A model generated the notes under the pieces. That model worked only from the letters and a program-made list of their open reading frames with translations, had not been told where the DNA came from and did not search any database. A stretch of 38,909 nt of DNA from contig JAGUXX010000299.1 in the NCBI GenBank assembly GCA_020061585.1, forward strand, positions 1 through 38,909, read 5' to 3'. Each line of letters begins with the position of its first letter. Positions within the stretch are counted from its first letter, which is position 1. The translations under genes were made by a program, and so were the position numbers. This DNA comes from Betaproteobacteria bacterium (lineage in GTDB: Bacteria > Pseudomonadota > Gammaproteobacteria > Burkholderiales > Thiobacillaceae). This document shows positions 22,724-30,409 of the stretch, piece by piece.

Positions 22724-25700
22724 TTAATCTTTGAACAGGTCCTTCAGTTCTTTCCATGTTTGCTGGATGTCCTCTACCTGTTCCAGCAGGTCCGGCTTTT
22801 CCGCCGTCGTGGTGCCGGATTCGTCGCTGGATTTGCCACTGGCCGGAGCAGGCGCCTGGCCAATGCGATCGCCGTTCCAGTTGTTGCCTTTTTCTGGCGG
22901 CGAGCTATTGCAATAACTCCAGGTGCCGATGAATTTGTCGGCCTCGAAGCTCCAGCGGATGCGGCCCCAGTGATGGCGGCCGTTCTTCGGGCTGGCGCAG
23001 CGCTGGCTGGAGCCGTTTTCGATCCAGAACCCCTCCAGCACGTTGCCGCGCATCTCGCCGACGATTTCTCCGCCATCGCTGGTGTACTTGCCGTTGATCT
23101 GATTGCCGGACTGAATCAGGGTCAGTTCGCCTTCAGTAGTCTTCCACTTGCCCGCAACGTTGCTTTCAGAAGCGGCAGTACCCGCTGCCGATTTTTTCTG
23201 CACTTCCAGCATCAGGCTGGTGCTGCCGGTTTTACCCAGGCTATCACGCACGCTGAGGCCGACCTTGTGCTGGCCGATCTTGCTCGGCGTCGCGACGGCT
23301 TGCGCGGCCTGGCCGATGGCGCCTTGCCAGACGTAGGTGTAAGGCGGTTTGCCGCCGGACACTTCGACGCGCAGGCTGACGCGCTGGCCGGGTTCCGGCG
23401 CGGCATCGTCGGCAATCAGGGTTGGAGTCGGATTGGCTGACACGGGCGGCGCATTGCTCACTTCGATGACGCTCAGGTTGATCTCGCCGCCGCCAAGCAC
23501 GATGCCATCCGCATCGCGCGCTTCGACGCGGGCGTTGATGCTGCCGGGCGCGCTGCGCGATACCGTCGGCGTCTGCGACAGGGTACTCGACAGCGTCGTG
23601 CCGTCGTTGACCGTCCAGCTCCAGCGCAAGCCGTCCGGCGCCGTCGCGGCTTGAATCTCGGCGCGTAGCGTAATCCGTTCATGCGTGACGAACGCGCCTT
23701 TCGGCACCGGCACCAGGCCACCTTTCTTCGCGTCCCAGATCATCGGCCGCGGGCCGGGTTCCACCGCGGTGACTTTGACCTGATAGATCTGGCCGGTATA
23801 GGTGGCGCTGATCTCGCCGATTTCGTCGCCGTGATAAGGCACTCGCGCCAGGGTTTTCAGCACCACCGGCTTGGCATCTTTCGCCTTGAAACTGATCTCC
23901 CGCGCATTGCTGGCGCGCTGCGTGCGGTTCGAGGTCGGCGGATCGATCCAGCGGAAGTCGACCAGGCTGTCGGCGATGCCGGGCTGGCTGCTGATCCGGG
24001 CGTTGATTTCCTGGCCGATGCGGCCCTGTCCCTCCGCCGGCGAGAACACCAGGTTGAATTTCGGCGCGATGACCTTGACCGTTTCCTGGTCGCATTCGCC
24101 CACGGTCTGGAAGCTGCCTTCGATTTTTTCCTGGATTTCGCACCACAGCTTGACCTCGCCCATGCGGTCGTAGGTGATCTGGGTTTTGCCGTCGCTGCTG
24201 GTCGGCGGCGTGAAGGTGACCAGCGGTTCGGATTGCCAGACGATCAGCTTGCCGGTTTCAACCGGCGGTGTGGCGAACTCCTGGGCCGGATTGGCGATGT
24301 ACTGCTGCTGTCGGCCGTCGGCGGCGGGGCGGGCGGCCGGTGGTGAGTTGCCGCCGCCGGCGCGTCCGCCCGAGTAATTGACGCTGCCGGAATGGCTGGT
24401 ATCGACGCAGAACGGATTGCCCGGCGTGGCGCAGGGGTCGAGCGGGTTGTTGCCGGGTTTGGCCCCGGCATTCGGGGCGACTGCCGCGACCGTTTCGCTG
24501 CCGGGCAGCGCCAGGGTAGCGCGACTGCCATAGAACACCGTCGGCTGGGCGCCTTTCAGTTTCACCCGCGCCGGACTGACCTGTAGTGTGGCGCTGCCTT
24601 CACCAGTCTTGCCGTCGGCATCGGTGGCGGTGACGCTGACTGTCCATTCACCCGCCCATCGCGGCGTCACGGCGACTCGCGCGCCACTGCCGCCGCTTGA
24701 CCAGGCAAAGCGATAGGGTGGCTTGCCGCCGCTGGCGCTGGCGTTGAGGGTGACTGATTTGCCGAAGGCGACGCTGGCCGTCGGCGCCGGCACGACCACC
24801 TTGAGCTCGGCCGCTGCGTCCTGCGCTTTCTTGCCGACCGGCAATGCCGCATTGGCGCAGCTCAGGCTGTATTTCAGGCGCGGCGTGACCGGTTTCGGGT
24901 AAGGGAAGGGCAGTTTGTATTTTTCGCTGAGCTTCTCCACCGATTCGAACCAGGCCCGGTAGCCGCCGAAGCCGGCGCTGTGCAGCAGATGCACGGCGTC
25001 GCCGAGTTCGCGTTTGGTGGTGCTGATCAGTTTCACTTCCTGCCAATGCTGCGCCGGCCAGGTGCCGACACAACTCTCTTCGAACTTGCGGCCTTCGTTC
25101 CGGCAGCGCTCGCTGCGTTTTCTGGTGTCCTCGTTCGGATTGCCGCTGTCCCAGCAGCGCCGTTCGACTTCGTTGCGCTGGTTTTCGACTTGCTGCATCA
25201 GCTTTTCCCAGACGACCGAGTCGATGTGATCAAGCGCGTCGATATACGGCCGCCAGGCCAGCGCCCAGTCGATGCGCGCGTTCTTCAGGGTTTTCAGCGC
25301 GTCGCCCAGGGCATCGATGTTGGCTTGCCAGGCGACCACGTTGTTCATCTTCAGATCGCTGTTCTTCTCGGCATCGAGGCGATCGACCAGGCGTTTCCAG
25401 TCGTGCGCGGCGAGCGCTGTCGCGATGAACGGCGCCAGCTTGGCATCGGTTTTCTGCTCCGCCTGGGTCACCGTGATGGCGCGTGAGGTTTCGCCGAGTT
25501 TTTTCTCGGCCTTGCCTTGCTTGACCACGGCGCTGAGGCCGAGCGTGTAGATGCGCGCCCGATCCGCCTTCAAGGTGTATTTTTCGGCACGCCCGGCGGC
25601 CACGCCATCCAGACTCCAGCGCAGCTGGAGATTGGCGCGGGCGCGGTCTTCCGCCTTGACGATGCGGGCGCTGAAGCTGGCGCTGTCGCCCAATTTGAGC

Positions 25701-28700
25701 TCGCCGGGACCGACGATTTCCAGTTGCACCGCCTGACCCGCCAGCGCCAGTTGCGCCAGATAATCCTTGTAGGCTCGACTGCGCGCGCCAAGCGCGGCCT
25801 GTATCTCCGGCGCGCACTGGCTGGCCGAGCGTTCGCCGCAATCGTCGAGCAGGTGTTCCCACTCGAACGCGTATTGAGCGAGCTGTTTCAGATGCGCCTG
25901 GTCCTTCGCGACATCCACCGGGCGTTGCAGCGTGTCGGCCAGTTCGCGGCGCAGCAATTCGTCGCGGCGTTGGTGCGCCGCCAGTGTCGTCTCGGCCAGC
26001 GTCACATCGGTGACCGGGTCGCCGGACAGGCGCGGCGCCGCCGAGGCGCTGCCGAGCAGCAGGTTCTTCATCGGCCGGGTTTGTACGGCGGCATAGTCGG
26101 CGCCGGCGGCATGCCAGGTATCCAGAATGATCTGCTTGCGCAGATTGTCGACGCGCTCGTAAGCCTTCAGATATTTGTCGAACAGCAGGCCGACGGCATA
26201 GGGGTTTTCGCCGGACCAGAAACTCGAATTCTGACGAATCTCGAACCGGACTTTCGCCAGCAGGCCCTTGTTCTTGCCGAGATCGGCGTCGCCCAGCCCG
26301 AGGTCGGACTCGATCTTGCGGATGCGGGCTTCCAGTTCCGGCGATTGCACCGACCTGGCCGCCGATTCCAGCATGTCCGCCATCGCCAGCCAGATCGTCT
26401 GGTTCAGGTTGTCTTCCATTTTTTGCAGCGCCGCCGCGCGCTCGCCGGCGTAGCCGTCGTTCGGCGTCTTGTCGGCCTTGGCCTTGAACTGTTCCAGCAT
26501 CGTCGTGGCATAGCGCACGTCTTCGCTGTGGGCGAAGAAGCGTCGCAGTTTCGACAGCTTGTCTTCGTAGCGGCCGAACTTGTCGTCCTGCCTGGGCGCC
26601 AGCGACGCCCAATAGCGGAAGTTGGGCGAGGTGAAGAAGGTGCTGTCGGCACGCGTGAACAAATCGACTATCGCCTGCCGGTTGCCGGGCGGAATCGAGG
26701 CGCTGTCGATTTCCTTGCCGATCAGGTTGCGCAGGCTGAAGCCGGTGATGCGGCCCTGGGTGTCGAATTCGGTGATGTCCAGGATGCGGTTCATCGCGGC
26801 GTAAAACTCGGCGTCGCGGATCGCCACATCGGCGCGCTGCAGTTGCTGACTGACCATGTAGGTCTGACCGGCGAACGGGAAATAGACGAATACCACGGCC
26901 ATGCCGAGCGGCTTCGGCGAACCGCTGCGCAAGCTGTCATACACCGCCAGCGGAATCTGCAGGCTGGGAAATTTCTCCTGCAGGCCGATGCGGCCCATCG
27001 CCAGCGAGGCGTTCCACAGGGCTTCGCTGGCATCCTTGCTGTCCAGATAGGCGTCGTAGACGGCGAACGCGTTGTCCGCCCAATCCATCGTCTTCATCAG
27101 GCCGGAGCCGGCGCTGGTCTTGCTCAATTGCTGGTTGAGCTGCTGCACGGCGTCGTAGACCTGAGCGCCATTCGGATATTTGCGCCGGGATTGCTCGACG
27201 AATTGGTCGATCGCCTGGTCGGCCCAGCCCAGTTTGCGCAGATAGCCTTTCAGCTTGAGATAGCTGTCGGACATCATGACGCGGTCGATCACCGAATCGG
27301 ACAACTTGTAGGACTCGCTCAGCAGGCTGTGCAGTTCCTTTGCCCGCGCCTCCAGTTCGGCCGGCGGCAGCTTGCCTTCGCGCACATCCCGGGTCAGCTC
27401 CAGGGCCTGGCGCATGATTTCCGGCGGCTGGCCGGCGCTGTCACGGAAGGCGCGCAATTCGGTGTCCAGGTCTTGCCACAGTTTGTCGAGCGCGGTTTGG
27501 CGCGCGTCGTCCTGCTTGATGCCGGCTACCGTATTGAGGCGGAAGGCCAATGCGCGGGCGGCGTTGTCGTGCATCGCGATCTCGGCATGATGGGTCAGCC
27601 GGTCGGTGACCGCATCGACGTTGTCGGCGGTGATCGCCTCGCCGGCCAGCGCTTCGAGCAGCGCCGCGACTTTTTCCGGGTTGTTTTTGTGGGCGATGAT
27701 CTGTTCGGCAAACCGGGCCAGCGCCGGGTTGTTTTCGCTGTACGGGTTGAAGCCGCTGCCGGCGATCGCCTTCTTGCTCATGAAATAACTGCGCTCGGCG
27801 TACTTCAGCATCTTGATCAGCTTCTGACCACGGCTGTAGGGACCGTGTTCGATGTCGTGGATGCCGTGGCGCAGCATTTCCAGCGACAGCATCGGCTCCT
27901 TGGTCAGGTCCATCTTCGGGTAATCCACTTCGGGCGCCACATCCTTGAATTGGCCGGCCTCAAGTTTGCGCAGCGCGACTTCCCAGAACAGTTGCGAGCC
28001 GGGCTTCTCGACCATGCGTATCCTGGGTTGGCCGTTGGCGTCGAGCACCAGGCTGCCGTCGGCATTTTTTTCGACCTTGATCAGTTTCCATTTCGACCGC
28101 TTGAGCATGTCCAGTTCGGCGAAGGTTTTGCCCCAGTCGCCGATGAATACGTCTGGTGTAGCCTGGCCGTGGGCGGTGAGCAGGGTATCGGCGCGCAACA
28201 TGGTCTGGCCGCTGCGCTGGTTCAGCTTGTCCTGGAAGCGGTCGACGATCCAACGGTTCAGATCGGGGTCGATGGAGACGCTGGAAAAGTCGATGTCGGC
28301 CTCGAAACCCAGGCCGGACAGCTGCATCTTCACCCACGAGCCGATATCGATCTCGCCCAGCACGGCGGCGTCGGGGTTTTGTTTGAAGGTGTCCTGCAGG
28401 GTTTCCAGCCACAACTGCTGCACCAGGCTGGCGCGGCCAAACATCAGTGCCCGTTCGGTGGCGAGAAAGCTATCGTCCCAGGCGCCCTGGCCGGGAAACA
28501 GCGGATGCCCGCCGCCGCCGGCGATCTTGTAGCTGTCCTTGAATTTCTGCAGATCGCCCAGGCCCAGGCCCATGTCGGCCAGGTCGCGCAGGAAGGCTGC
28601 GCTGATCTGTTGCAGCCTGCGCTCGCTCTTTTCGCCCAGTTGCGGTTTGCCGGATTCATTGGCGCCGCGCCCGAACAGCTCACGGATGCCGCCCAGTTCC

Positions 28701-29134
28701 GCCTCGTAACGCCTGAGCAGGTCGCCGATGCGCCGCATCTCGGCCGCGTCGAGCTGGCCGCTGGCGCTCTGCCCCGGCTCGGTTTGAGGCGTGATCACGC
28801 CCGGTTTCGCCTTGCTGTCGCTGACGTTGATCACGGTCCTGTAAGTCTTGCCGTTGATCTTCACCTTGACCGTGCCATGGCCCGCCCGCACGCCCTTCAG
28901 CCTGGCCTGATCCGAATCGCTGTCCAGCAACTTCAAACCGGCATCGGCGGACCAGTGGGTCACCACGGCGATCATCGGCTTGCCGGCAATCCGCACCGTC
29001 ACCTCGTCGCCGATGCCGATTTCGCTTCTCTCCGGCTTCAGCGATGCGCCCAGGGCAGGCAGGGCAAGCAGGCAGACAATCAACAGACTCCAAAAAGGGA
29101 GCCGAAACAAGCGGGGCCAGGAGTGCGCCATCAT
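22724..29134 (-). CDS. Giant exported multidomain protein of unknown function (2136 aa)
   Basis: A signal peptide (about 1-30; WSLLIVCLLALPALGA) is followed by a Big-like beta domain (31-105), then about 1000 mostly helical residues (130-1130) without repeats I can name. An Ig-like domain (about 1136-1226) and a second helical part with a Cys cluster (about 1320-1360) come next. PKD/SprB-like domains with the telltale GGKPPYRFAWSS and GGKPPYTYVWQG lie at about 1445-1525 and 1925-1978, separated by a Gly/Pro/Ala-rich low-complexity stretch (about 1575-1615) and two more Ig-like domains. Near the C-terminus (about 1990-2075) is a small barrel-like domain of the GKW..L.L.QSGN...G.Y..GG...G...GN.L.G.W type. 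The tail is charged and helical. No membrane anchor, LPXTG, autotransporter barrel or T1SS repeat is seen. GGAG precedes tandem ATGs at 29134 and 29131. It appears monocistronic. Confidence 0.85.
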   Translation of the reverse strand: MMAHSWPRLFRLPFWSLLIVCLLALPALGASLKPERSEIGIGDEVTVRIAGKPMIAVVTHWSADAGLKLLDSDSDQARLKGVRAGHGTVKVKINGKTYRTVINVSDSKAKPGVITPQTEPGQSASGQLDAAEMRRIGDLLRRYEAELGGIRELFGRGANESGKPQLGEKSERRLQQISAAFLRDLADMGLGLGDLQKFKDSYKIAGGGGHPLFPGQGAWDDSFLATERALMFGRASLVQQLWLETLQDTFKQNPDAAVLGEIDIGSWVKMQLSGLGFEADIDFSSVSIDPDLNRWIVDRFQDKLNQRSGQTMLRADTLLTAHGQATPDVFIGDWGKTFAELDMLKRSKWKLIKVEKNADGSLVLDANGQPRIRMVEKPGSQLFWEVALRKLEAGQFKDVAPEVDYPKMDLTKEPMLSLEMLRHGIHDIEHGPYSRGQKLIKMLKYAERSYFMSKKAIAGSGFNPYSENNPALARFAEQIIAHKNNPEKVAALLEALAGEAITADNVDAVTDRLTHHAEIAMHDNAARALAFRLNTVAGIKQDDARQTALDKLWQDLDTELRAFRDSAGQPPEIMRQALELTRDVREGKLPPAELEARAKELHSLLSESYKLSDSVIDRVMMSDSYLKLKGYLRKLGWADQAIDQFVEQSRRKYPNGAQVYDAVQQLNQQLSKTSAGSGLMKTMDWADNAFAVYDAYLDSKDASEALWNASLAMGRIGLQEKFPSLQIPLAVYDSLRSGSPKPLGMAVVFVYFPFAGQTYMVSQQLQRADVAIRDAEFYAAMNRILDITEFDTQGRITGFSLRNLIGKEIDSASIPPGNRQAIVDLFTRADSTFFTSPNFRYWASLAPRQDDKFGRYEDKLSKLRRFFAHSEDVRYATTMLEQFKAKADKTPNDGYAGERAAALQKMEDNLNQTIWLAMADMLESAARSVQSPELEARIRKIESDLGLGDADLGKNKGLLAKVRFEIRQNSSFWSGENPYAVGLLFDKYLKAYERVDNLRKQIILDTWHAAGADYAAVQTRPMKNLLLGSASAAPRLSGDPVTDVTLAETTLAAHQRRDELLRRELADTLQRPVDVAKDQAHLKQLAQYAFEWEHLLDDCGERSASQCAPEIQAALGARSRAYKDYLAQLALAGQAVQLEIVGPGELKLGDSASFSARIVKAEDRARANLQLRWSLDGVAAGRAEKYTLKADRARIYTLGLSAVVKQGKAEKKLGETSRAITVTQAEQKTDAKLAPFIATALAAHDWKRLVDRLDAEKNSDLKMNNVVAWQANIDALGDALKTLKNARIDWALAWRPYIDALDHIDSVVWEKLMQQVENQRNEVERRCWDSGNPNEDTRKRSERCRNEGRKFEESCVGTWPAQHWQEVKLISTTKRELGDAVHLLHSAGFGGYRAWFESVEKLSEKYKLPFPYPKPVTPRLKYSLSCANAALPVGKKAQDAAAELKVVVPAPTASVAFGKSVTLNASASGGKPPYRFAWSSGGSGARVAVTPRWAGEWTVSVTATDADGKTGEGSATLQVSPARVKLKGAQPTVFYGSRATLALPGSETVAAVAPNAGAKPGNNPLDPCATPGNPFCVDTSHSGSVNYSGGRAGGGNSPPAARPAADGRQQQYIANPAQEFATPPVETGKLIVWQSEPLVTFTPPTSSDGKTQITYDRMGEVKLWCEIQEKIEGSFQTVGECDQETVKVIAPKFNLVFSPAEGQGRIGQEINARISSQPGIADSLVDFRWIDPPTSNRTQRASNAREISFKAKDAKPVVLKTLARVPYHGDEIGEISATYTGQIYQVKVTAVEPGPRPMIWDAKKGGLVPVPKGAFVTHERITLRAEIQAATAPDGLRWSWTVNDGTTLSSTLSQTPTVSRSAPGSINARVEARDADGIVLGGGEINLSVIEVSNAPPVSANPTPTLIADDAAPEPGQRVSLRVEVSGGKPPYTYVWQGAIGQAAQAVATPSKIGQHKVGLSVRDSLGKTGSTSLMLEVQKKSAAGTAASESNVAGKWKTTEGELTLIQSGNQINGKYTSDGGEIVGEMRGNVLEGFWIENGSSQRCASPKNGRHHWGRIRWSFEADKFIGTWSYCNSSPPEKGNNWNGDRIGQAPAPASGKSSDESGTTTAEKPDLLEQVEDIQQTWKELKDLFKD

Positions 29135-29306
29135 TTTTCTCCAGTTCAGGTCGGCAGGTCAGGACATGGCCCTGACGCGCCGATCAAAAGATACGTCTAT
29201 CCAATTTAGTCTTCTGGCTGGGATTGGACAAACCCAGAGGAAAACCCCGGGGCAATCGCATTGGCGTAACAGTGGGTCGATAAACGCGATAAATTCAAAA
29301 AAAACC

Positions 29307-29389
29307 GTCACCCCGGCGTATGCCTGGGTCCAGAAATTGTTGATTTTATTGACCCAACTGCGCTGGACCCCGGCCTTCGCCGGGGTGAC
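29307..29389. repeat. Inverted pair of 27-bp GTCA..CCAG palindromic units, upstream of glyQ
   Basis: Unit 1 (29307-29333) starts GTCACCCCGGCG and ends GGGTCCAG. Unit 2 (29363-29389) is the inverse, starting CTGGACCCCGGC and ending GCCGGGGTGAC. Each unit is itself a palindrome around a 4-nt loop, though unit 1 has mismatches. The spacer is 29 nt. A second pair of the same family lies after glyQ. Similar short palindromes are dispersed in many proteobacterial genomes. Confidence 0.75.
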
Positions 29390-29456
29390 AAAATGTTTTT
29401 CGACACCCCGATAAACGGGAAACCGGCGCGGGTCGTATCCGGCGGAACGGTACGGT

Positions 29457-29462
29457 TAGAAT
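29457..29462 (+). promoter_or_regulatory. Possible glyQ -10 hexamer TAGAAT
   Basis: TAGAAT lies 30 nt before the glyQ ATG, which would give a short leader. No recognisable -35 hexamer lies 16-18 bp upstream, so support is weak. Confidence 0.3.
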
Positions 29463-29491
29463 TCGCACTCTTTTCAACGCGTTTCGACACC

Positions 29492-30409
29492 ATGCCCGCT
29501 TTTCAGGACATCATTCTCACGCTCCAGCGTTTCTGGGGCGAACAGGGCTGCACCCTGCTGCAACCCTACGATCTCGAAGTCGGCGCCGGCACCAGCCATA
29601 CCGCCACCTTTCTGCGCTCGCTCGGGCCGGAACCCTGGAAAGCCGCTTACGTGCAGCCGTCGCGGCGACCCAAGGACGGCCGTTACGGCGAGAACCCGAA
29701 CCGCTTGCAGCACTACTACCAGTTCCAGGTGGTGCTGAAGCCGGCTCCGGAAAACATCCTGGAGCTGTATCTCGGCTCGCTCGAAGCGCTCGGTTTCGAC
29801 CTCAAACAGAACGACATCCGCTTCGTCGAGGACGACTGGGAAAACCCGACGCTGGGCGCCTGGGGCCTGGGCTGGGAAGTCTGGCTGAACGGCATGGAAG
29901 TCACCCAGTTCACCTATTTCCAGCAGGTCGGCGGCATCAATTGCAAACCGATCACCGGTGAAATCACCTACGGCCTGGAACGCCTGGCGATGTATCTGCA
30001 AGGCGTCGACAACGTGTTCGATCTGGAATATTCGCCCGGCGTCAGCTATGGCGACGTGTTCCACCAGAACGAGGTCGAACAATCGACCTACAACTTCGAA
30101 CACAGCGACGTCGAATTCCTGCTCACCGCGTTCAACGCCTACGAGAAACAGGCGAAAAACCTGATGGACAACAAACTCGCGCTGCCGGCCTATGAACAGG
30201 TGCTGAAAGCCGGCCATACCTTCAACCTGCTCGACGCGCGCGGCGCCATATCGGTCACCGAACGCGCCGCCTACATCGGCCGCATCCGCAACCTGGCGCG
30301 CAGTGTCGCGCAGAGCTACCTTGATTCGCGGGCGCGTCTCGGCTTCCCGATGGCGCCGAAGGAATGGGCGGAAGAAGTATTGGCGCAGATCGAGAAAAAG
30401 GCGGCGTAA
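29492..30409 (+). CDS. glyQ: Glycyl-tRNA synthetase alpha subunit
   Basis: The product is 305 residues (E. coli 303). It is the catalytic subunit of the alpha2beta2 glycyl-tRNA synthetase. The start [20 protein letters not shown] is diagnostic. Family hallmarks are [32 protein letters not shown] in two parts (YVQPSRRP and [10 protein letters not shown]), and [12 protein letters not shown] from class II motif 3. ATG 29492 is chosen to match family length. glyS follows after 109 nt, which hold a repeat pair. The two subunits are needed together. Confidence 0.98.

Follow-up and report, generated by a model that had tools for sequence, protein, structure and literature searches.

A giant exported-type protein encoded beside glyQ

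The window analysed here comprises the 38,909 nucleotides (positions 1 to 38,909, forward strand) of contig JAGUXX010000299.1, from a Betaproteobacteria bacterium of the Thiobacillaceae (assembly GCA_020061585.1), and carries on its minus strand a 2136-codon open frame (22724–29134, running from 29134 down to 22724) that encodes a giant protein. Established by an open reading frame listing, its translation and homologous open frames in relatives, this gene represents a real, undescribed and modular exported-type family, in which a core in the N-terminal half is combined with a C-terminal chassis. A first-pass annotation made from the letters of the window alone had placed the frame correctly without stating its strand, and the separate histories of core and chassis, the partner genes and the recurring tail were beyond what it could see. 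The codon of residue i begins at position 29134-3(i-1). A ribosome-binding site, GGAG (29139–29142, minus strand), was read directly ahead of the ATG at 29134, 4 bases from the first and 7 bases from the second ATG of a protein that begins MM. The clean signal peptide of the first-pass annotation looks, by inspection, like a typical Sec-type start (~ residues 1–30, 29045–29134), with a basic n-region, a hydrophobic stretch and ALGA. On the opposite strand, an overlapping 1230-codon open frame (25517–29209, plus strand) looks like a shadow of the giant gene, since the homology detected was to the minus frame; a codon score also favoured the minus frame, weakly because it was trained on this same gene. 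The divergent neighbour glyQ (29393–30409, plus strand) gives the context of the gene, and adjoins it in six other loci. The impression that the gene stands alone is therefore true for the window only, as its place beside glyQ is conserved and partner genes follow it in relatives.

The protein was modelled with AlphaFold in two parts, residues 112–1140 (27-sequence alignment, mean pLDDT 76, pTM 0.47) and residues 1141–2136 (24-sequence alignment, mean pLDDT 80, pTM 0.38). Behind the signal peptide, the N-terminal domain (residues 30–110, 28805–29047), delimited by homology, recurs with 37–42% identity on five smaller proteins of exported appearance from the same bacterial family (L043–L047), all with a signal peptide by eye; the Big-like label first given to it found no Pfam match up to E = 10. 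The exchangeable core module (residues 112–1130, 25745–28801), defined by its model and an ancestry separate from that of the chassis, contains an enzyme-like alpha/beta domain (residues 226–462, 27749–28459). The chassis starts with an Ig-like beta domain (residues 1138–1225, 25460–25723) seen from model strands, the Foldseek Ig matches concerning the whole C-terminal half. It continues with a helical cysteine module (residues 1232–1430, 24845–25441; model and alignment), a PKD domain (residues 1436–1522, 24569–24829; Pfam PKD_4, BiPBP_C and Ig_3) and a low-confidence stretch (~ 1547–1626). Further beta domains (residues 1628–1885, 23480–24253; Pfam, model and comparison) form the chassis part shared most widely across phyla and hold the best Pfam PKD stretch (1813–1877). 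They are followed by a second PKD/SprB-type domain (residues 1895–1980, 23195–23452; Pfam), a small all-beta domain with the QSGN..G.Y motif and a Cys pair at 2046/2075 (residues 1990–2096, 22847–23167; homology, model and alignment), and a terminal helix, amphipathic by eye (22727–22789; low-confidence model and tail comparison), that ends in LKDLFKD in the window and in LKGLFGK in several relatives.

Searches with the whole protein agreed with the several Ig/PKD-like domains first described, with PF00801, PF18911 and PF13573 above their curated Pfam cut-offs (PKD 1.4e-9) and, among PHROGs, three Hoc-like (Ig) families and one major tail protein. NCBIfam and PADLOC scans of the whole protein gave no credible match, and the matches to an NCBIfam cardiolipin synthase (E 0.17) and Pfam WXG100 (E 3.1) were discarded as noise. 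For the chassis model, Foldseek returned Ig arrays such as GhpA (best, 5.6e-16), S-layer proteins and cadherins, with low TM-scores over whole arrays. The core was not credibly spanned by any family of Pfam, NCBIfam, PHROG or PADLOC, and its PDB sequence matches were at chance level (best E 0.075, a designed helical repeat). No Foldseek match of the whole-core model reached E <= 0.001 (best 0.21 in PDB, and 1.5e-3 at probability 0.33 in BFVD), and the listings in both collections were mostly long helical proteins, all above that limit. The first-pass description of about 1000 helical residues without a family thus stood for the lack of a family, but not for a purely helical nature, as an alpha/beta domain with predicted strands lies inside. 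The protein class remained undescribed as far as tested in Pfam, NCBIfam, PHROG, PADLOC, PDB and Foldseek: the core matched no characterised family, and the frame was open in relatives. In an open-library search of the literature, no paper was recognised as describing this family, which does not show that none exists.

This giant protein family is rare. Among 101 related genomes, the window's own included, 13 matched the giant protein at E <= 0.001, and 4 of the 100 other genomes encoded open-frame relatives ~ 59–63% identical over nearly the whole length. A scan of the genome collection with the core alignment retrieved 26 loci, all but one from metagenome-assembled records (25/26), distributed among Pseudomonadota (Thiobacillus/Gallionellaceae-type and others), Verrucomicrobiota, Bacteroidota (Chitinophagales), Nitrospirota, Thermodesulfobacteriota and Melainabacteria. 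With a profile of residues 226–462, 1 of 274 genomes of the class and 2 of 398 of the phylum matched, each count including the window's own genome. The core query found no relative in 72,556 plasmid records, in 50,697 phage records or in a pattern scan of viral contigs, and a phage or plasmid origin was rejected on these grounds. The gene of one Chitinophagaceae member (L059, 9764–14246) is interrupted and reads as two frames; undetermined bases lie close to the interruption, which reflects either a fault of the assembly or gene decay.

Core and chassis with separate histories

Two main core types were distinguished, A (the window and 12 loci) and B (14 loci), the B cores being 16–21% identical to the window core. 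Five proteins with B cores, encoded in four genomes of the window's genus (L060, L061, L062, L064 and L067), share 44–77% identity with the window over chassis segments 1232–1980, against 12–19% in most segments of the core and 32–33% in residues 226–462. The Verrucomicrobia protein L051 shows the reverse, with 53–70% identity in residues 226–1130 and 15–38% in the chassis. Trees disagreed in the same way. In the core tree, the window clusters with A cores from four phyla, this type occurring in Bacteroidota, Verrucomicrobiota, Nitrospirota and Pseudomonadota. In the chassis tree, the nearest row to the window is the B-core protein L061, and the smallest starred set with the window mixes four A-core and three B-core proteins (99). 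Forcing the A-core set into one clade cost the chassis tree 97 log units (approximately unbiased test, AU, p = 8.7e-6), and forcing same-lineage A and B proteins into one clade cost the core tree 1004 log units (AU p = 3.4e-7). These trees were built by a quick method with several long branches flagged, the core tree without L059 (two frames) and L042, and the chassis tree without L059, L063 and L073. In the chassis tree, the joint A and B set of the lineage has a support of 70 and is not starred, the A-core protein L049 lies outside the mixed set, and the chassis of L042, L065 and L071 are more distant. From the identity table and the tree conflict together, an exchange of cores between related chassis is therefore well supported at the sequence level.

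The position of the gene is in line with this picture. Divergent glyQ adjoins an A core in the window, L048, L050 and L053, a B core in L065 and L071, and a third type, C, in L042, where glyQ lies ~ 1.1 kb from the gene and is cut by the contig end. The C core has no similarity to A and B in the 226–462 domain (0.5%) and a weak similarity at the end of the helical part, over its final 240 residues (hhalign 56%, score 47.7, against 31.7 for the best of 30 block shuffles and 17.3 for the reversed control). Four B-core genes (L060, L061, L062 and L064) adjoin, instead of glyQ, a gene that we take to be odhB from its recognisable sequence.

An enzyme-like domain within the core

Conservation in the core is concentrated in residues 226–462. 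Across 27 sequences, 25 of its 237 columns are invariant, versus 1/114, 0/298 and 3/370 in the other core segments (4 in 782 positions). The first part of the domain holds E227, R234, G265, D280, D282, D316, T320, H322, A325, V329 and G335, and the second E413, P414, L416, S417, E419, M420, R422, H423, D427, K441, K444, Y445, R448 and S449. Both Asp of D280-I281-D282 (28289–28297) are invariant in 27/27 sequences, as are R, H and D of the R422-H423...D427 motif (RHGIHD, 27854–27871). The longer RHGIHDIEHG, singled out by the first-pass annotation as a possible functional centre, falls within the most conserved stretch of the family, whereas the cysteine segment proposed alongside it did not hold up as such. 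The domain, RH..HD included, is the likely functional centre of the core, and this concentration of invariant residues supports an enzyme-like active site there.

In the model of residues 112–1140, strands are predicted near 258–262, 281–287, 317–322, 349–354 and 372–377. A helix (221–252) is followed by the strand 258–262, G265-S-W267, the strand 281–287 with DID, a helix (290–308) and the strand 317–322, which invariant D316 adjoins. Further on lie a helix with RH...D (415–429) and a helix with K..KY..RS (435–460). This order resembles that of the pol-beta nucleotidyltransferase palm followed by its helical part. By its motif order (GxW, then DID) and predicted strands, we infer that the domain is nucleotidyltransferase-like; the order helix, strand, G[S], strand with DxD, helix, strand is the feature by which it resembles pol-beta nucleotidyltransferases (PF01909, PF03710 GlnE and PF03445 DUF294). 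In hhalign comparisons, the DID fell on the DxD of NTP_transf_2 (after removal of the wrong-frame row L076) and of GlnE.

Chassis, cysteines and C-terminal tail

The four-Cys segment that had been noticed around 1320–1360 contains three cysteines only (1327, 1344 and 1355), the fourth being at 1426, and it belongs to the chassis, not to the core. The complete set of four is found in 14 of 28 aligned rows, one of them in 4 rows, and none, or a gap, in 10. This distribution would suit the disulfides of an optional module, and the idea of a functional centre there was dropped. Relatives add other modules to the C-terminal part, e.g. LamG in L036.

Eleven giants of the window's bacterial family end inside a contig. 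Six of them end in LKGLFG plus one residue, and the others in LKGLFNW (L034), LKDLFKD (window) and LLDIFK (L042) or without the usual tail (L031, 6328–13050, identical to L050; L035, 5532–13649). The L031 frame ends in other sequence right at the start of a downstream membrane protein gene, M2, as if truncated or frameshifted. The tail reads LKG[LMV]FGR in 4 of the 5 small kin (L044–L047, not L043), and was found in 0 of 12 complete-ended members outside this bacterial family. A DNA pattern derived from the family tail gave 23 matches in the 101 genomes (L180–L202), versus 2 for a backward control, and 22 of the 23 were in frame. Twelve belonged to this family or its small kin, which was to be expected since the pattern was built from them. 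The 10 others were on other proteins, named by Pfam as DUF3617 (5) and AsmA (3) or left unnamed (2); a signal peptide can be seen by eye in some of these (e.g. L186, L194 and L197). AsmA proteins belong to the envelope. Shared with AsmA and DUF3617 proteins, the tail therefore suggests membrane retention in the envelope, and LKGLFG-type ends are a candidate retention signal spanning unrelated families. No known surface anchor (LPXTG, PEP-CTERM, autotransporter, type IX or type I secretion signal) was found with Pfam and NCBIfam, which left the C-terminal helix only. The first-pass statement that the protein lacks an anchor stands for known anchors, but is weakened by the presence of this tail on unrelated envelope-type proteins.

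Membrane partners of the chassis

M2 encodes a membrane protein of ~ 330 residues with, by hydropathy, two transmembrane (TM) segments, a soluble part and more TM segments. Of the 13 family-bearing genomes of the window's bacterial family, 10 carry it, and it was not found in G006, G017 and the window's own genome. By coordinates, all ten copies lie behind a chassis gene with an A, B or C core or no core, either directly (G001, G025 and G030) or behind an intervening multi-TM gene bearing TPRs (G011, G015, G020, G021, G022, G041 and G059; only a cut end of the chassis gene is visible there for G015 and G059). An M2-like gene (35%, cut) also lies behind L070. M2 is thus supported by its position as a chassis-linked partner gene and, because it accompanies the chassis rather than any one core, does not resemble an immunity protein dedicated to the core. 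Another membrane protein, M1, is encoded next to the giant gene, upstream in L051 and L052 and downstream in L055, L057 and L058; M1 and M2 as one family were not supported (hhalign 0.6%).

In L053 (19097–20557) and L071 (18864–20168), a multi-TM protein with C-terminal TPRs is encoded directly behind the giant gene. Such a neighbour has the layout of TMTC-type GT-C protein O-mannosyltransferases, to which we presumptively liken it by its motifs; in database searches, only its TPRs found a match. A glycosylation of the exported protein is possible. Core-less proteins of 420–450 residues with the same N-terminal domain and tail (L044, 6231–7511; L046, 6146–7477; L047, 5126–6388) occupy the place of the giant gene ahead of the TPR membrane gene and M2.

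Functional interpretation

We tentatively favour an exported, envelope-held modular protein with an exchangeable enzyme-like core, both activity and location being predicted, although we give this reading somewhat less than an even chance. Sec would export the chain, and the chassis would fold and oxidise outside the cytoplasm. Attachment to the membrane would then come from the C-terminal helix, in relatives perhaps together with the chassis-linked M2, so that the protein is predicted to be most likely periplasm- or envelope-retained. There, the substrate of the core would be a small molecule or polymer of the envelope, and the core would most likely be a nucleotidyltransferase-type or related phospho-transfer enzyme that relies on the DID pair and the R/H/D/K/Y helices. 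Core versions on related chassis would be swapped by recombination at a fixed locus, in the manner of systems that experience diversifying selection. In this way, a core of ~ 1000 residues would have been replaced at one locus, with the related chassis and, in most relatives, also the membrane partner being kept. Should the core be an enzyme, it would be a group-transfer enzyme outside the cytoplasm without a described relative, and its invariant residues make this testable.

Several observations weigh against this interpretation. Concerning the enzyme, similarity to pol-beta nucleotidyltransferases did not reach significance for either profile or fold (Pfam, PDB, Foldseek and hhalign). A Pfam scan of the 226–462 domain in 27 members gave nothing sensible (scattered matches at E 0.02–0.2), and a PDB sequence search with it found no relative (best E 0.92). 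The hhalign values were not significant for NTP_transf_2 (0.4%), DUF294 (0.3%), GlnE (2.4%) and a single SMODS sequence (3.6%, hardly a test as the motif filter kept one sequence from 14 SMODS loci), and a backward control itself reached 2.4%. DUF294 and SMODS were out of register, the DID not falling on their DxD. Immediately after G265, 12 of the 13 A cores have S (the other, L056, has T), but 12 of the 14 B cores have K, with S in L072 and A in L073. This altered GS position of the B cores separates them from the known enzymes, from which the protein also differs by its exported type and large helical continuation. The likeliest third carboxylate, D/E328, is present in 23/27 sequences and replaced in L054, L070, L072 and L073. 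Furthermore, nucleoside triphosphates are scarce outside the cytoplasm. Concerning the envelope, neither M2 nor the TPR membrane protein (E limit 1e-20) was found in the window's genome, which is 93.5% complete, and neither M1 nor M2 was at 16 of the 26 loci, several of them cut short. In G011, G020 and G022, M2 lies behind a core-less protein (L047, L046 and L044, respectively) and the giant B-core gene is elsewhere, without M2. Finally, the LKDLFKD of the window departs from the tail pattern and its helix was modelled at pLDDT 43–71.

A structural or adhesive surface protein, whose Ig/PKD stalk would present a helical ligand-binding domain without catalysis, appears unlikely. Its chassis does resemble the Ig arrays of large surface proteins (GhpA, S-layer and cadherin-like), with the low TM-scores already mentioned, and the LamG module in the tail of one relative and the variable C-terminal modules would fit such a role. 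This likeness to Ig/PKD-stalk proteins is however to Ig arrays in general, and the giant protein differs from them by its enzyme-like core. The dense invariant charged signature of one domain across six phyla (E227, R234, D280, D282, D316, H322, E413, E419, R422, H423, D427, K441, K444, Y445 and R448) would be unusual for a mere binding scaffold, and the absence of a known surface anchor or secretion signal from the Pfam and NCBIfam matches also argues against this role.

A role as a polymorphic toxin, or as an effector for delivery into other cells, with the variable part in the middle rather than at the C-terminus, is improbable in our view. As outlined in Zhang et al. 2012 (PMC3482391), polymorphic toxins are large modular exported proteins in which a conserved chassis carries an exchangeable enzyme-like module, with recombination at a fixed locus, and a RelA/SpoT-type nucleotidyltransferase fold is among their toxin domains. 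Exchangeable enzyme-like cores on a common chassis and a patchy spread over phyla are likewise found here, but the module is in the N-terminal half, whereas the exchangeable catalytic modules known from toxins are C-terminal warheads. The C-terminal ends vary here too, but with LamG or small all-beta modules. No conserved trafficking or secretion domain was found with Pfam (matches of relatives included), NCBIfam or PADLOC, and no core-specific immunity gene was seen: M2 follows the chassis and is missing from the window's genome, unlike a cognate immunity gene. The tail that relatives have in common with envelope-type proteins, and the absence of relatives of the core query from the plasmid, phage and viral-contig collections, also speak against delivery.

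An enzyme of another fold, e.g. a HAD-like phosphohydrolase in which DIDFS would be motif I and T320 motif II, or one whose fold is unknown, has a low probability in our view. The DxDx[S/T]-like stretch, the invariant T at a strand end and the VFIG[DE] of A cores would resemble HAD motifs. However, in place of the would-be motif-IV acid, 8 of the 14 B cores have Lys or Arg and another 4 have Ala, Pro or Ile; the strand with GxW precedes DID, and a HAD enzyme has no need of the invariant helices after 413.

Returning to the envelope-held enzyme that we favour, a broader reading would make this family a new class of extracytoplasmic enzymes of nucleotidyltransferase fold, or comparable group-transfer enzymes, whose place in the envelope would be secured by a dedicated chassis, a membrane partner and an amphipathic tail. 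Their catalytic core would exist in deeply diverged A, B and C versions, with A over four phyla, and would be exchanged, the chassis mostly remaining with its lineage. In this full extent, the proposal is doubtful.

Other features of the loci

Between the giant gene and glyQ, two facing GC-rich repeats (29307–29390), read by eye, resemble a REP-like (repetitive extragenic palindromic) element. In the four Bacteroidota loci L055, L057, L058 and L059, the gene shares its neighbourhood with a polyphosphate kinase and a VIT1-family membrane protein, which were named by Pfam in L055 only and by similarity in the three others.

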